Shown in pieces: positions 1 to 5,677 of a stretch of DNA of 5,677 bases; the stretch's first letter is position 1; every line of letters starts with the position of its first letter. Source of the DNA: Candidatus Fermentibacterales bacterium (GTDB taxonomy: Bacteria > Fermentibacterota > Fermentibacteria > Fermentibacterales > JAFGKQ01); assembly GCA_016928495.1 (NCBI GenBank), contig JAFGKQ010000302.1, forward strand, positions 1 to 5,677, in the 5' to 3' direction. The translations under genes were made by a program, and so were the position numbers. The notes under the pieces were generated by a model. The model saw only the letters and a program-made list of their open reading frames with translations. It was not told the origin of the DNA and did not search any database.

Positions 1-799
1 CGCGGCCGGCGCCGCATGAGTAGAGGAGGTCCCTGTCGCGGTCATCGCGATCTCCGAAACGCTTCCAGAACTCGACCAGGCTCTCTCTGCGCCGCGGATC
101 GGACAGGTCGAGCTCGACGATCTCGCGCGGCTCGAGCCTGACCCGCTTGGGCCCCGCGGAGCCGTCCAGTCCGGCGTTGAGCATCGCGTCGAACCTGAAG
201 TCGAGGCCCAGCTCGTCAGCGATACCCCTCATTCCGTCCAGGTCCCGCAGGTTCTGTCTCATCACAGTGCTCTTGAGCCCGACGCGGACTCCCTGCTCCA
301 GCAGCGCCCGGACCCCTCGCAGGGCGTCCGCCAGGACCCCTGACCGTCCGGTCACCTGGCGGCAGGTCTCCTCGGATGCCCCGTAGAGCGTCACCTCGAC
401 GATGAACGGAGGGTGTCGCCCGAGCAGCCGCGCCAGATCCCGGGTGACCAGCGTGGCGTTGGTGAAGAGGCTCACGATCATGCCAAGTCGGACGGCGTGG
501 ACGTAGATCTCCGGGAAGTCCTCTCTCAGCAGCGGCTCTCCGCCGGTGAGGAGCATCCACAGACATCCGGCGGACGCGACATCGTCCAGGATGCCCCGCA
601 CTTCCGAGCAGCCAAGCTCGAGCCCGGCGCTCTCGCCGGACGGGCTCGTCCGGGGCATGTAGCAGTGACGGCAACGCAGATTGCAGCGCGAGGTGATCTC
701 GAAGGTCCCTGAAAGGGGCAGGTGCTCCCTCAGCGCCGCCTCGTGCAGCCTGCGGCTGAACTCACCGTAGCGGCAGGCGAGGGGACCCGGATCGGTCAC
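1..799 (-). CDS. Radical SAM/SPASM peptide maturase, 3' end outside window
   Basis: This is a radical SAM enzyme that would cleave S-adenosylmethionine at a [4Fe-4S] cluster to start radical chemistry, probably on a peptide. Seen: the cluster motif CNLRCRHC with Cys39, Cys43 and Cys46, followed by Tyr47; the SAM-binding TGGEP motif at 85-89; FTNAT at 112-116; and VEVTLYGAS at 135-142, a strand typical of the SPASM-type subfamily. The last codons read CGAGR (262-266), the usual opening of a SPASM domain that binds auxiliary clusters; the remaining cysteines lie beyond base 1. The start is GTG at 797-799. It overlaps the stop of the PqqD-like gene as GTGA, with GGAAGAG just upstream, so translation is probably coupled. 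Relatives include PqqE and other RiPP maturases. A PqqD partner next door supports a peptide substrate, but the reaction (crosslink, thioether, epimerisation) cannot be read from the sequence. Confidence 0.93.
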   Translation of the reverse strand, partial: MTDPGPLACRYGEFSRRLHEAALREHLPLSGTFEITSRCNLRCRHCYMPRTSPSGESAGLELGCSEVRGILDDVASAGCLWMLLTGGEPLLREDFPEIYVHAVRLGMIVSLFTNATLVTRDLARLLGRHPPFIVEVTLYGASEETCRQVTGRSGVLADALRGVRALLEQGVRVGLKSTVMRQNLRDLDGMRGIADELGLDFRFDAMLNAGLDGSAGPKRVRLEPREIVELDLSDPRRRESLVEFWKRFGDRDDRDRDLLYSCGAGR

Positions 800-1128
800 T
801 GCTCTTCCGGGGGGCCGGCCAGTCTGACCATGCCGGCAGAGACCAGCGAGGACAGGAACCCGCGGAGGTCGGATTCGAGGTCGGACTCGGTCATTCCGTA
901 GCCTCTCGCCATCTCTCCGAGCATCTCGTCGAAGCCAAGGCGCCTCTCCAGCATCTCCCAGACGCGGATGGCCGAGCCCCTGAGCACGAAGATGGCGTCG
1001 AGCCCGGATGCCCGTCTCGCGGTCGGCACGAGCAGCAGCTCCCCGGCGATGTGCCTGGCCACGATGTCCGGCGACTTCTCAAAGGTGTCGGAAGGACGGA
1101 AGCCGGGAGAGACATCTCCGGCAGTCAT
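796..1128 (-). CDS. PqqD-family peptide chaperone (RiPP recognition element)
   Basis: A 110-residue cytoplasmic protein of the PqqD family. Such proteins use a small winged-helix fold (RRE) to bind the leader of a precursor peptide and deliver it to a radical SAM/SPASM enzyme. Seen: an N-terminal strand region around DIVARHIAGELLLVP (21-35), the core IFVLRGSAIRVWEMLE (46-61) in place of the family's usual aliphatic-x-x-W/aliphatic helix, and a C-terminal helix near 83-101 ending in AGMVRL, like the L-x-x-G-L-L/V end of PqqD proteins. The length fits the family (about 90-110). The ATG start has a strong Shine-Dalgarno, GGAGAGGAAG, 5 bases away. The gene is sandwiched between a small frame (ATGA overlap) and the radical SAM gene (GTGA overlap), so the three are probably made together. 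It is not PqqD itself by context: no other pqq genes are visible. Confidence 0.85.
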   Translation of the reverse strand: MTAGDVSPGFRPSDTFEKSPDIVARHIAGELLLVPTARRASGLDAIFVLRGSAIRVWEMLERRLGFDEMLGEMARGYGMTESDLESDLRGFLSSLVSAGMVRLAGPPEEQ

Positions 1129-1238
1129 CGTTGCTTCCTCTCCGTGGTGCCCGGCTGGCGGGGCGCTGCCCCGGCCTGGACCGCGGCGTCCACTGGGCTG
1201 TACGCAACGTCTTCGACATCCGCGGTCGGACCTTTCAT
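1125..1238 (-). CDS. Small 37-residue ORF, candidate RiPP precursor peptide
   Basis: An unrecognised small frame whose TGA stop overlaps the ATG of the PqqD-like gene (ATGA). It starts MKGPTADVEDVAYSP and ends in TTERKQR. It has an acidic N-terminal third (D7, E9, D10, D17), an Ala/Gly/Pro/Gln-rich middle and a basic tail, with no cysteine and no signal peptide. About three quarters of its codons end in G or C and many begin with G, as in real genes here. An in-frame TGA lies six codons upstream, so the ATG at 1236-1238 is the only canonical full-length start. E9 and Y13 are spaced E-x3-Y, as in the crosslinked pair of PqqA. Weak point: GGTAGG abuts the ATG with no spacing, so translation may rely on re-initiation from the hydrolase stop about 40 bases upstream. 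It could instead be a chance frame in a leader region. Confidence 0.4.
   Translation of the reverse strand: MKGPTADVEDVAYSPVDAAVQAGAAPRQPGTTERKQR
1134..1143 (-). promoter_or_regulatory. Shine-Dalgarno of the PqqD-like gene
   Basis: GGAGAGGAAG lies 5 bases before the ATG at 1126-1128. It is the best ribosome-binding site in the left half of the window and fixes the PqqD-like start. It lies inside the last codons of the upstream 37-residue frame, so a ribosome finishing that frame would uncover or reuse it. Confidence 0.6.
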
Positions 1239-1279
1239 CCTACCGAAGCCCGCTCAATGCAGCAACCGGTCAGGGAGAG

Positions 1280-2110
1280 CTAGGGCAGGGGGATCACGCC
1301 CAGGGCCGCCAGCAGCGAGGCGGCGATCGCCAGAGAACAGGCGAGCGCTCGCGTCACGACAGTCCTCCTCCATCTCCTCCTCCAGAGGACATCCCCCAGG
1401 ATCTCGCCGAGGTGATGCAGGTACCCGGTCGTGTGCCCGGTCCCTATGAGGGCCGTCGCGTCCATGTTGAGGATCCCGGAGTGGCTCTGCCTTCGCAGGA
1501 TGCCCTTCCGCCCCGCCGCCTCCCTCCACCTGAACCGGATCGCCTGGCCTATCCTGAACCGCAGGCCAAGGCTCTCGTCCTCCTGGCTGTAGAGGTTGTA
1601 GAGCCGGCCCCGTATCTTCTCCGCTATGCCTGCCCAGTCCATTCCGGAGTCAGCGCTGACCGCCGCGGCCAGGAGAACGACATCCAGTACCCTGTTCCCC
1701 GGGGGCATCGCGGCCAGCGCATGGTATGCAAGGCTGGCGCCCAGGGAATGGGCAACGACCGTGACCCTTCCCCTTCTCGAGGCGAGGCACAGCAGGGCGG
1801 GCCCCCATCGCTCGCCTGTCTCCCTGGCTCTGTCGTTGACTCTTACCCAGTCGATGGCGTCGGCCAGGCCCATGACTCCGCCTCTCTCCACGCCGGAGTC
1901 CCACCATAGATGGCATATCCGCCCGTGCCAGCCGGCACGGCGGAACGCGGAGCACCATCTCCGCAGGTCCTTTTCCTCGTAGTCGCTGGTATGGAAGCCC
2001 GGAACGAAGACGAGCGTCTCACGGAGCCCCTTGGCCGGCTCCAGCTCCCTGAGCAGAGGCTCCCTCTGGTCGTCGAAGGTCCGTCCGCAGTCCACTTTGC
2101 GCCAGGTCAT
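1280..2110 (-). CDS. DUF726-like alpha/beta hydrolase with C-terminal membrane anchor
   Basis: A 276-residue serine hydrolase of unknown substrate. Seen (numbering from the ATG at 2108-2110): an oxyanion-loop-like strand LVFVPGF (33-39); the nucleophile elbow VVAHSLGAS with Ser122; RLYNLYSQED (169-178), where Asp178 is a candidate acid; and NMDATALIGTGHTTGYL (215-231), where His226 is the likely catalytic base. The order of a strand LDVVLLAAAVS, then NLYSQED, then GTGH resembles the DUF726 (TMCO4-type) branch of alpha/beta hydrolases. An Arg-rich patch (WRRRWRR) precedes a hydrophobic C-terminal segment at about 253-274, so the protein is probably tail-anchored with its enzyme domain in the cytoplasm. 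A GTG five codons upstream (2123-2125) is open too, but the ATG is better served by GGAG at 9 bases. The gene has its own likely promoter, and its stop is only about 40 bases before the small RiPP-like frame, so it may head that transcript. Confidence 0.8.
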   Translation of the reverse strand: MTWRKVDCGRTFDDQREPLLRELEPAKGLRETLVFVPGFHTSDYEEKDLRRWCSAFRRAGWHGRICHLWWDSGVERGGVMGLADAIDWVRVNDRARETGERWGPALLCLASRRGRVTVVAHSLGASLAYHALAAMPPGNRVLDVVLLAAAVSADSGMDWAGIAEKIRGRLYNLYSQEDESLGLRFRIGQAIRFRWREAAGRKGILRRQSHSGILNMDATALIGTGHTTGYLHHLGEILGDVLWRRRWRRTVVTRALACSLAIAASLLAALGVIPLP

Positions 2111-2114
2111 CAGG

Positions 2115-2123
2115 CCTTGCTCC
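2115..2123 (-). promoter_or_regulatory. Shine-Dalgarno deciding the hydrolase start
   Basis: GGAGCAAGG lies directly before the ATG at 2108-2110 (GGAG spaced 9 bases, AAGG spaced 4). The upstream GTG at 2123-2125 has no purine-rich site in front of it and is itself part of this sequence, so the ATG is preferred. Confidence 0.45.
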
Positions 2124-2125
2124 AC

Positions 2126-2440
2126 TCCACGATGATATCAGAGCTTGCCACTGCTCCGGATCAGCCAGGGAGGACCCCATTCGCAAAGGCAGGGACGAAG
2201 CCGGCCAATGGAGGATCCGTCTGGCACTACGGCTTTCCCCATACTATACCACCGCCGAATCCGGGTCAGGATGATCTGTCTTGGAGGATCCCCCGCCCCG
2301 GGGCTCTCAGACTAGCGGTCGGCCCTCGATATGGCCGTGTCCTGGGAGTCCATGGACGAGGCGGGGTGCGAGAAGGGCCCCTGGCGAGGAGGCTGAGGAT
2401 GAAGCGCCTTGCCGTCAGAGCGTGCCCTTCGATGCCGACC
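2126..2440. other. Non-coding stretch between rhomboid and hydrolase genes
   Basis: About 315 bases without a convincing gene. In minus-strand order it holds the region downstream of the rhomboid stop with no hairpin-plus-T-run terminator, then a promoter-like element at 2243-2269, then an untranslated leader of about 125 bases before the hydrolase. The leader could fold: bases 2207-2213 can pair with 2175-2181, and 2214-2219 with 2157-2162, nested. TGGAGGATCC occurs twice, at 2209-2218 and 2282-2291, on either side of the promoter. Confidence 0.5.
2243..2269 (-). promoter_or_regulatory. Extended -10 promoter ahead of the hydrolase gene
   Basis: On the minus strand TATAGT (2243-2248) is preceded directly by TGG (2249-2251), giving the extended -10 pattern TGnTATAnT of housekeeping sigma factors. 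A weak -35, CTGACC (2264-2269), sits 15 bases upstream, shorter than the usual 17, but an extended -10 tolerates a poor -35. It is one of the few AT-rich spots in a GC-rich window and lies between genes. Transcription would start near 2236 and run into the hydrolase and perhaps on through the small frame, PqqD-like and radical SAM genes. Confidence 0.45.
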
Positions 2441-3196
2441 CTACCGGACCGGGATCCGACCCGGCCGCCGGCGTGACATCCATCCGATCAGAAGGAAGCC
2501 GGCCAGGAAGCCGCCGATGTGGGCCAGCCATGCTATCCCGGCGTCAGAGCCGATGCTGACCACCTGCAGAAGCAGCCAGATGCCGAGGAAGAAGAACGCG
2601 GGAATCCTGACTATCTGGAAAAAGAGGAACAGCGGGATGAGCGTGGTCACCCTCGCCAACGGGAACTTTCTCATGTAGGCGCCCATGAGCCCGGATATGG
2701 CCCCTGACGCCCCGACTACGGGCACGACGGAGGACGGGTTCAGCAGCACGTGCGCGAGGACGGCAGCGATGCCGCATGCCAGGTAGAACACCAGGAACCT
2801 CCCCCTTCCCAGCAGGTCCTCCACGTTGTCCCCGAATATCCACAGGAACCACATGTTGCCGACCAGGTGGAACAGGCCCCCATGAAGGAACATCGAGGTG
2901 AGGAGGGTGAGGAGGGGCGGGAGGCTCTGGCGGGGCAGGTCCACCCTGGCGCTGACCCTCTGAGTGTTCTGCATGCCGTAAGTGTCGATAGACCTGATCT
3001 TCCGATCGACTTCCACGGTGCTCTGCCCGGCCAGTTCTGGCTCCGTTATGAGAACGGGGACGGCCCCGTACTCCATGGCGGTGCTCTCCAGACCCTCCGC
3101 TGCCGCCAGGAGAAAGACCAGGGCATTGATGAGCACCAGAGAGCGGGTGACGAGAGGGAAGGACCTGAGGGGATTCTCGTCTCTCAGTGGGATCAA
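2441..3196 (-). CDS. Rhomboid-family intramembrane serine protease
   Basis: A 251-residue inner-membrane protease that would cleave transmembrane segments of other membrane proteins. Seen: the N-terminal signature MIPLRDENP common to one bacterial rhomboid branch; a first membrane helix at about 17-34; the motif FLHGGLFHLVGNMWFLWIFGDNVED, with His105, His110 and Asn114; the catalytic serine in GASGAISG (Ser164); and the catalytic histidine in AHIGG (His226). Further helices lie near 131-152, 157-176, 184-213 and 220-239, giving six in all. All residues needed for the Ser-His dyad and oxyanion hole are present, so it should be active. A polar loop of about 55 residues separates helix 1 from helix 2. 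The start is TTG, supported by the conserved MIPLRD beginning and by GAGGAG just upstream. The substrate is unknown; the kinase genes upstream give no clear clue. Confidence 0.93.
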   Translation of the reverse strand: MIPLRDENPLRSFPLVTRSLVLINALVFLLAAAEGLESTAMEYGAVPVLITEPELAGQSTVEVDRKIRSIDTYGMQNTQRVSARVDLPRQSLPPLLTLLTSMFLHGGLFHLVGNMWFLWIFGDNVEDLLGRGRFLVFYLACGIAAVLAHVLLNPSSVVPVVGASGAISGLMGAYMRKFPLARVTTLIPLFLFFQIVRIPAFFFLGIWLLLQVVSIGSDAGIAWLAHIGGFLAGFLLIGWMSRRRPGRIPVR

Positions 3197-3308
3197 GCTC
3201 TCCTCGCTCTCAGGTGCGTCAGTGCCGTCGGGTGAGGACCGGGGAAGCCCGAAGATGATGAGTGGCCGGCACCCCGTCTATGCGGACACGGGCGGGGATA
3301 CGACGGGC

Positions 3309-5276
3309 TCAGGCGTCGAGCGCCTCCCTGACCGTCTGCAGCAGCGTGCGCACACTGAAGGGCTTCCTGAGCAGCCGCACCACGAGCTGTCCGGGATCGT
3401 ACCGGAATAGCTCCGGCTCCAGAGGGTACCCGGACATGAAGACCGCCTTCGAAGGCCCACCCTCGTCCCGGAGCTTGTCGAACAGCTCCCGTCCGTCCAT
3501 GCCGGGCATCGCGACGTCGCTGACCAGAAGGCCGACGGTCTGACCCGGCTGCAGCCCCCTGAAAGCCTCGATGGCCTTGCCAGGCCCGGACGCATACAGC
3601 ACGCGGTAGCCGCCGGCCGAGAGGGCGGCCCTGACAAGCCTGCCCACCGCAGGCTCGTCCTCCACCACGAGCACCGTCTCTGAGCCCCTTGGCAGCGGCT
3701 CGCTCTCCGAAGGCGCCTCCGGGCGAGCCCTGTCCTCCTCCGCCGCGGGAAGGAAGACCGTAAAGGTGCTTCCCCTCCCGGGAGTGCTCCTTATGTCTAT
3801 GCAACCCTCGTGCTGCCGGACGATCCAGAAGACCGTGGGAAGACCGAGCCCCGTTCCCCCGGTTCTGGCCTTGGTCGTGTAGAAAGGCTCGAAGACGCGG
3901 CCCAGGGTCTGCTCGTCCATGCCGAGCCCGGTGTCCTCCACGGAAAGGTAGGCGAACCGGCCCGAAGCACACGGGGGATGTGATATCTGCGCGTTCTTCT
4001 CTAGATGCTCCACGCCGGTCCGTATGATCAGCTCTCCGCCGTCCGGCATCGCGTCCCTGGCGTTGAGAACGAGGTTCATGAGCACCTGGTGGACCTGAGA
4101 CGTGTCGGCAACGGTCAGCACCGGATCGTGCGTCTCCAGCTCGCTCCTGAGGAGCACGTTCTCGCCTATCAGTCTCTCGAGCATGCGGGCGAAGTCCGTA
4201 ACGATCGCGTTGAGGTCTATCAGCGCCCGCTGCGGCAACTGCTTCCTGCTGAATGCGAGCAGCCTCCTGGTCAGGTCGGAGGCTCTCTGTGCGGCATCCC
4301 TGATCTCCCTTATCTCCTCGATGATCGGAGTGCCGGGGTCCAGCTCGAGAAGGGCCATGTCCGCATAGCCCAGAATGGGCGAAAGCAGGTTGTTGAAGTC
4401 GTGAGCCACCCCACCGGCGAGCTGCCCGATCGCTTCCATCTTCTGCGCCTGGAGCAGCTGCTCCTGGAGCAGCTTCCTCTCGGTGATGTTGCTGGCCATG
4501 ACTATCACGCCCTGAAGGCTGCCGCTCTCGTCGTGGAAGGCTGAGGCGTGCAGCTCCAGATCGACGGTGGCTCCCGCCAGCGAGGTGTACCGGACATGCT
4601 CTCCCGACAGCACCTCGCCGGCGATGACCCTCCTCAGTAGCTCGACACCTCCGGCGTCGATGACCGGCTCGAGGTCGCCGAGCCGCATCCCCAGGAGGCG
4701 TACGTCCTCCCCCTCCTTCAGCCCCATCATCCGCTTCATGGCAGGGTTCTCGTAGGTTATCCTGCCCTCGGAGTCCAGGTAGAGAATGCCCAGCGGCGCC
4801 CTCTCGACCAGGTTCCTGTTGAAGGACTCCGACCTGGCCAGGGCAGTCTCGGCCCTCTGTTTCGCTCTTCTCAGGGTCGCGGCCGCAAGCGCGTTCTCAA
4901 CCGCCTGCCCGAGCCTCGCAAGGCGGTCTTTGAGCAGGTAGTCGGCAGCACCGCTCTTCATGCACCTGACGGCCACCTCTTCGCTTATCGTGCCGGTGAC
5001 GACTATGAAGGGAGTATCGAGGCCGCGGCCCACGAGGATCTCCAGGGCGCGCGATGCATCGAACATCGGCATCTTGTAGTCGGAGATGACGATATCGAAG
5101 CTCTCCGCGGAGCTGAGGAGCTCGGTGTACCCGGCCTCGCTGCAGGTAGCCTCCCAGGAGACGCCAAAGCCCGCCCTCTCCAGCTCCCTTACTATGAGAG
5201 CCACGTCCTCGGGCCTGTCCTCCAGTATCAGCACGCGGATCGGGACCCCGGGAGAGGCTCCGCCCTCAGTCTTCAA
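3309..5276 (-). CDS. Hybrid histidine kinase, REC-PAS-HisKA-HATPase-REC
   Basis: A 655-residue cytoplasmic two-component protein with no membrane segment. Order seen: receiver 1 at about 13-128 with acid residue Asp20, phospho-acceptor Asp66 (ISDYKMP), Thr94 and Lys116; a short helical linker; PAS at about 150-265, ending in NITERK; HisKA with the phosphorylated His292 in GGVAHDFNNLLSP; HATPase with N-box Asn405, G1 box EDTGLGMD (447-454), F box FEPFYTTK (462-469) and G2 box GTGLGLP (474-480); and receiver 2 at about 534-655 with Asp540, phospho-acceptor Asp587 (VSDVAMPGMDG), Ser615 and Lys638. All catalytic residues are intact. The start is TTG, with GGAGAGGA adjacent and an 11-base overlap with the upstream kinase gene, suggesting coupling. 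The first receiver, of the CheY/Rcp1-like kind ending in YLLKDRL, probably takes phosphate from that kinase and controls this one. The final output partner is not in the window. Confidence 0.95.
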   Translation of the reverse strand: MKTEGGASPGVPIRVLILEDRPEDVALIVRELERAGFGVSWEATCSEAGYTELLSSAESFDIVISDYKMPMFDASRALEILVGRGLDTPFIVVTGTISEEVAVRCMKSGAADYLLKDRLARLGQAVENALAAATLRRAKQRAETALARSESFNRNLVERAPLGILYLDSEGRITYENPAMKRMMGLKEGEDVRLLGMRLGDLEPVIDAGGVELLRRVIAGEVLSGEHVRYTSLAGATVDLELHASAFHDESGSLQGVIVMASNITERKLLQEQLLQAQKMEAIGQLAGGVAHDFNNLLSPILGYADMALLELDPGTPIIEEIREIRDAAQRASDLTRRLLAFSRKQLPQRALIDLNAIVTDFARMLERLIGENVLLRSELETHDPVLTVADTSQVHQVLMNLVLNARDAMPDGGELIIRTGVEHLEKNAQISHPPCASGRFAYLSVEDTGLGMDEQTLGRVFEPFYTTKARTGGTGLGLPTVFWIVRQHEGCIDIRSTPGRGSTFTVFLPAAEEDRARPEAPSESEPLPRGSETVLVVEDEPAVGRLVRAALSAGGYRVLYASGPGKAIEAFRGLQPGQTVGLLVSDVAMPGMDGRELFDKLRDEGGPSKAVFMSGYPLEPELFRYDPGQLVVRLLRKPFSVRTLLQTVREALDA

Positions 5277-5677
5277 TCCTCTCCCCCTCGTCCGTAATGC
5301 CGCTCTGGCCGGCCTCCCACAACGTCAAGCAGAAGCATGTTCCCTCGTTCTCCCGGCTGCTGACGACCAGCTTCCCCCCGTGTCTCCTGACCACCTGCTC
5401 GACTATCGCCAGCCCGACCCCGGTGCCCTCGTAGTCCTGTCCGTGCAGCCTTGAGAACACCTTGAAGATCTCGTCGGCATGCTTCTGATCGAAGCCCACG
5501 CCGTTGTCTGCCACGCAGATCATCTCCTCGCCATCGATGACCCGCGTGCCTATCTCGATGCGGGCAGGCCGACTGGTCCTGGTGAACTTCAGAGCGTTCG
5601 AGAAGAGGTTGACCAGGGCCTGTCTGACGAGCCTCGGGTCCACATGGCAGGCAGGCAGCGCGCCTACCTCCACCTCC
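5266..5677 (-). CDS. Sensor histidine kinase, C-terminal ATPase domain (5' end outside window)
   Basis: The frame runs open through the right edge, so this is the last 136 or so residues of a longer kinase; the GTG at 5671-5673 is an internal valine, not a start. Seen: the N box VRQALVNLFSNALKFT, the G1 box VADNGVGFD, the F-box region FKVFSRLHGQDYEGTG and the G2 box GTGVGLAIVEQVVRRHGG, followed by the final strands of a HATPase_c fold. The SRLHG...EGTGVGLAI pattern is the type found in PAS- and phytochrome-like cytoplasmic kinases. It binds ATP and would autophosphorylate a histidine encoded outside the window. There is no C-terminal receiver: the protein ends about 20 residues after the ATPase fold. 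Its stop lies 11 bases inside the next gene, whose N-terminal receiver is the obvious candidate acceptor. Confidence 0.93.
   Translation of the reverse strand, partial: EVEVGALPACHVDPRLVRQALVNLFSNALKFTRTSRPARIEIGTRVIDGEEMICVADNGVGFDQKHADEIFKVFSRLHGQDYEGTGVGLAIVEQVVRRHGGKLVVSSRENEGTCFCLTLWEAGQSGITDEGERIED

Follow-up and report, generated by a model that had tools for sequence, protein, structure and literature searches.

The closest described counterparts of the locus reported here are peptide-modifying systems in which a discrete RiPP recognition element (RRE) reads a short leader motif. The linear polyphosphorylated peptides (LPPs, specified by LppA/B/K/S/N/D), published in 2026 from the Bacillota, have been studied experimentally: the RRE binds a YxxP motif, a HprK-like kinase adds phosphates to Ser3 of the core, and the leader is cleaved off by a SipW-like protease; LppK did not accept Thr (PMC13381572). 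YxxP is likewise the leader motif of lasso RREs (PMC12710340). Paeninodin-like phosphorylated lasso peptides also employ a discrete RRE, which reads [Y/W]xxP, and a HprK-like kinase, together with a macrolactam synthetase and a B2 protease. Among radical-SAM enzymes, the sactisynthase SkfB and the enzyme of structure 5wgg, which we take to be CteB, the maturase of a SCIFF/ranthipeptide, act on Cys-containing substrates. Finally, the SynChlorMet system modelled by NCBI (NCBIfam ScmC-ScmF) comprises a PqqD-like protein, a HprK-related protein and two radical-SAM/SPASM proteins.

The window analysed here is 5677 bp long and spans all of contig C73 in an 81%-complete draft assembly that totals 2.31 Mb over 337 contigs. 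It carries on the (-) strand a PqqD-like RRE of 110 aa (796-1128; Pfam PqqD, E 7.9e-8), the first gene of the cassette, followed by the N-terminal 266 aa of a radical-SAM peptide maturase (2-799; Pfam Radical_SAM, E 3.1e-20), whose frame stops at base 1, the assembly edge, because the window is the whole contig. The first-pass annotation had described three frames joined by four-base overlaps (ATGA at 1125-1128 and GTGA at 796-799), and this arrangement is borne out by the sequence of the (-) strand. The GTGA, which combines the stop codon of pqqD with the GTG start of the radical-SAM gene, is likely to provide translational coupling, and four-base overlaps recur in paralogous cassettes (for example L077, 1227/1230). 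A Shine-Dalgarno sequence, GGAGAGGAAG (1134-1143, (-) strand), is located 5 nt ahead of the pqqD ATG. The same annotation had identified a PqqD-like protein beside a SPASM-type radical-SAM enzyme; the Pfam matches confirm the PqqD and Radical_SAM domains, but the SPASM region falls mostly outside the window. Compared with its orthologues the enzyme lacks the C-terminal ~100 aa that form this SPASM-like region, and the sole piece of it within the window is the apparent first SPASM Cys, in CGAG. The CX3CX2C cluster motif is present as CNLRCRHC, with a spacing shared by the orthologues, which in the part corresponding to the missing C-terminus contain CX12GX4C and CX2CX5CX2C...C; the assignment of this part to SPASM rests on Cys spacing, as the Pfam SPASM model finds no match in the orthologues. 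In profile comparison with solved structures, SkfB (4.5e-28) and 5wgg (5.6e-11) are among the nearest radical-SAM enzymes.

The RRE fold of the window protein is evident in its AlphaFold model (pLDDT 84), the best structural matches of which are the lasso RRE-leader complexes of TbiB1 and TfuB1 (Z 12.5/12.4/12.0, with 12.5 for TbiB1 and 12.0 for TfuB1), whereas PqqD structures score lower (Z 10.3 and 7.2). TbiB1 is also the top phmmer match, and a separate profile comparison matches it at E 6.7e-12. As modelled, the fold is therefore closest to the lasso B1-type RREs, which read YxxP.

Comparisons were made with a phylum sample of 42 genomes, in which the host is the sole representative of its own family. 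Orthologues of the RRE adjoin a radical-SAM gene in genomes G003, G012, G039 and G035, the radical-SAM gene in the last being likewise cut by a contig end. The window radical-SAM enzyme is 47% identical to its orthologue in G003 and 42% identical to those in G039 and G012; the orthologue in G015 is more distant. Gene order in G003, G039 and G012 is pqqD, radical SAM, a gap, a HprK-like gene and a S24/S26-like protease gene, and in G015 it is HprK, radical SAM, RRE, protease and radical SAM. The proposal of a RiPP-type cassette is supported: in genomes of the same order the pair recurs within a conserved operon that includes a precursor, a HprK-like kinase and a S24/S26-like protease. The kinases retain GxxxxGK[ST]T; they resemble HprK only weakly, mainly around Walker A. 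The proteases retain G-x-SM-x-P and VHR[LVI] motifs, as in archaeal/ER signal peptidases of the Ser-His type, and in G003, G039 and G012 they carry a C-terminal GNAT domain. These protease-GNAT fusions (L034, 6576-7517 (-); L035, 6682-7617 (-); L036, 3894-4802 (-)) have a GNAT portion that resembles N-terminal acetyltransferases, and the fused domain could add an acetyl group to the N-terminus that is exposed once the leader has been cut off. Several cassettes adjoin a divergent gene with signal-sequence or outer-membrane beta-barrel features (L036, 7569-8873 (+); L041, about 3560-4003 (+); and upstream of pqqD in L083 and L084).

The gap in these orthologous cassettes, which we designate type A, encodes a peptide of 52-57 aa, located after the radical-SAM gene in G003, G039 and G012 and before it in G015. 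That of G039 reads MKQKKRPYSKPRIERVVLALEETVLTFCKGMGTMGPMVGSCQQPGGPGPCQIKGT; G003 and G012 have close relatives of it and G015 a more distant one. Type A precursors have a YxKP leader and an LTFCK...C...C core with two further Cys residues each; the G015 peptide has LDFCK, and WNKC in place of YxxP. When a profile was built from three copies and used to search for the held-out fourth, the precursors of G039 (E 3.5e-17), G003 (1.1e-16) and G012 (7.2e-14) were recovered, and that of G015 weakly (E 0.017). A second G003 copy, situated after the protease gene and absent from all models, was found by every profile with an E of 1e-19 or better. Strong matches across the 42 genomes are confined to these loci, the only match elsewhere being a weak one (E 0.018) within a 696-aa frame. 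The host assembly, 81% complete, yields no match to the precursor profile and no type A kinase or protease orthologue, its only kinase match being a paralogue on contig C308. We consider it probable that the contig end interrupts a RiPP operon composed of RRE, radical SAM/SPASM, precursor, HprK-like kinase and ER-type signal-peptidase-like protease. By analogy with the relatives, the missing precursor, kinase and protease of the host would lie past the contig end, with the start of the precursor expected some 0.3 kb outside base 1.

The first-pass annotation had suggested a possible precursor in front of pqqD, in a 37-aa frame (1125-1238, (-) strand) that overlaps it through the ATGA. On one reading the frame encodes the precursor of a genus-specific new RiPP class, translated first and coupled to pqqD, a proposal to which its position directly ahead of pqqD with a four-base overlap lends some appeal, as does the representation of the host's family by one genome, which leaves room for conservation within the genus. 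The overlap carries little weight, however, because an ATGA in a given register stops any frame reaching it, and when upstream sequences were simulated with a Markov model that kept the dinucleotide content, 30.5% of them had a frame of 37 aa or longer ending at such an ATGA. The codon score of the frame is -0.13 per codon against gene usage, whereas all 36-codon windows tested from neighbouring real genes lie above it, at 0.05 or more; GC3 is 0.74, compared with 0.84-0.86 in real genes. Its last codons (GAG AGG AAG CAA CGA, giving the tail ERKQR) overlap the pqqD Shine-Dalgarno sequence, whose bases encode the ERK. The peptide has neither Cys nor YxxP, and matches neither a known family nor the precursor profile. 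Nor is a conserved small ORF recognised ahead of pqqD in the orthologous loci of four relatives, two of which have a consensus-like promoter there instead, and the clear precursor sits elsewhere, after the radical-SAM gene. The first-pass annotation had itself named these two outcomes as ones that would refute its proposal. We consequently rejected the frame as a precursor, a role that we regard as highly improbable; on sequence grounds it is most simply untranslated sequence rather than a gene. A promoter scan of window positions 700-1700 gave nothing; by eye, a weak TTGCTG-N17-TAGGAT, not counted as a promoter, overlaps the ATG of the frame.

Two further accounts of the cassette itself merit consideration. 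The idea that the RRE and the radical-SAM enzyme turn a peptide into a small cofactor, like the PQQ or mycofactocin pathways, gains something from the complete G003 radical-SAM orthologue, the top family match of which is the mycofactocin radical-SAM maturase (117 bits), and from the lack of any recognised exporter in the cassettes. All scores nevertheless fall far short of the curated thresholds, which are 265 bits for the mycofactocin enzyme and 381 for PqqE. The cassette precursors contain Cys, vary in sequence and in some cases occur in duplicate, features not known of PqqA or MftA. A kinase and a signal-peptidase-like protease are not known as parts of either pathway, and we judge a cofactor product unlikely. 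We think it equally doubtful that the cassette is simply a SynChlorMet-type system, despite weak matches of its proteins to ScmC (HprK-like), ScmD (PqqD), and ScmE and ScmF (radical SAM) and a gene complement which the paralogues with two radical-SAM genes largely share, since the scores are well under the cut-offs (ScmE 93.8 of 400 bits, ScmC 34.4 of 125, ScmD 30.7 of 100). No cassette protein reaches a Scm cut-off. The same holds for the curated equivalog cut-offs of PQQ, mycofactocin and GeoRSP, none of which is reached, all scores being far below. A search for literature combining PqqD, HPr kinase, radical SAM and a precursor peptide, or naming SynChlorMet, found none, although coverage was incomplete and such absence proves little. 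Within the same incomplete coverage, only a Pelobacter genome paper was found to join HprK and radical SAM.

The preferred reading, a RiPP operon interrupted by the contig end, relates the cassette most closely to the LPPs. RRE, HprK-like kinase, signal-peptidase-like protease and YxxP precursor are all present in the orthologous cassettes (the RRE alone being visible in the window), and a co-encoded short precursor with a YxxP leader is found in the relatives and in the C308 paralogue of the host's own genome. The cassettes thus have in common with the LPPs a discrete RRE, a HprK-like kinase, a leader protease of the archaeal/ER signal-peptidase type and a YxxP leader, and the spacing of the LPP motif matches the cassette peptides without gaps as far as the leader cleavage site. 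The motif YxxPxVLxHQxIxFETxxS aligns gap-free to YVRPALERVKLMVEETVLT, with E and T at +14 and +15 in both, and because these residues are in register the alignment suggests the same cleavage site, with Thr at the phosphorylation position. At the position of Ser3 of the LPPs, four type A peptides carry Thr and the G015 peptide carries Asp, which weighs against the parallel because LppK did not accept Thr. In contrast, the description of LPPs does not mention radical SAM anywhere in its main text (PMC13381572), while the cassettes possess one or two radical-SAM/SPASM-like enzymes; and the NTP transferase and MsbA-like transporter of LPPs were not recognised among the neighbouring ORFs scanned. 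Unlike LPPs, the cassettes also specify Cys-containing cores, occur in a phylum represented here by 42 genomes and include a protease-GNAT fusion in three type A loci. The best reading is a cousin of the LPPs in which a Cys core additionally undergoes radical-SAM chemistry, and we have not filed it as an LPP because it has radical-SAM genes and no NTP transferase or transporter was recognised among the ORFs scanned. With the paeninodin-like lasso peptides the cassettes share the discrete RRE and the kinase, but a macrolactam synthetase and B2 protease are not recognised, and radical SAM is found in their place. With SkfB and 5wgg they share Cys-containing substrates; their RRE, however, is a separate protein, and a kinase and a signal-peptidase-like protease are added.

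In the proposed pathway the radical-SAM enzyme would modify the core, most likely by cross-linking the conserved cysteines; the thioether chemistry is suggested by the conserved Cys residues and the SPASM-like enzyme. The HprK-like kinase would phosphorylate Ser/Thr of the peptide, and the Ser-His(-Asp) protease would then cut off the leader just ahead of VLTFCK, ~16 residues on from where YxxP starts. We infer the order of these steps and all of their chemistry, including the phosphorylation and the cleavage site, as well as the biological role, whereas the gene set, the precursor with its conservation and the catalytic motifs can be read from the genomes of the relatives. The cassette links radical-SAM peptide chemistry with the RRE-kinase-signal-peptidase set known from LPPs, a leader motif, cleavage site and core can be predicted for an apparently uncharacterised group of peptides, and correction of the precursor provides the right peptide for an expression test.

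More diverse members of the family are found across the phylum, HprK-like matches being present in 28 of the 42 genomes. The host itself encodes on contig C308 (L041) a complete paralogous cassette (RRE, radical SAM, radical SAM, HprK and protease; 163-3530 (-)), with the start of a YSRP-type precursor at the contig edge (1-73 (-)): MDRFPAEYSRPVLVPVHEAGMTAV, beginning MDRFPAEYSRPVLVPVHEAG. In other genomes, 12 neighbourhoods with two radical-SAM genes carry the full set. Type B precursors are located between the radical-SAM and kinase genes, and the seven that were aligned have an invariant Y, P and five Cys residues; type C precursors are located after the protease gene. All type B and C peptides have a YxxP leader. 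In the peptides listed, the distance from the Tyr to the first core Cys is 19-22 residues, and one G003 copy has an additional Cys within its leader. A Cys-containing YxxP ORF occupies 16 of 18 cassette slots against 0.26 expected, a descriptive number, the slots having been chosen after the pattern was seen. Related cassettes in two other genomes, one from the Bryobacterales (L021) and one from the Clostridiales (L023), have similar peptides beside them. We see about an even chance that these loci represent a distinct RiPP family that recurs throughout one phylum and has three or more types of precursor. In such a family a single YxxP-reading RRE would serve a radical-SAM/SPASM enzyme, a HprK-like kinase and a protease of the ER signal-peptidase type, to which an N-acetyltransferase-like domain is fused in some cases, and the peptides would be both radically Cys-cross-linked and phosphorylated or N-acetylated. 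The host genome has a third PqqD-like/two-radical-SAM group on contig C153 (L042, 926-3480 (-)); its surroundings revealed neither HprK nor a protease nor a YxxP peptide.

The remainder of the window is occupied by other genes. An alpha/beta hydrolase related to DUF726 (1280-2125 (-)) lies immediately ahead of the cassette and shares its strand. It is preceded by a Rhomboid protease (2441-3196 (-); Pfam 9.1e-35), for which a rhombosortase match is weak and below the cut-off, and by two sensor histidine kinase frames side by side (3309-5276 (-) and 5266-5676 (-)), the former of which appears by eye to be a hybrid histidine kinase with receiver-like domains at both ends.
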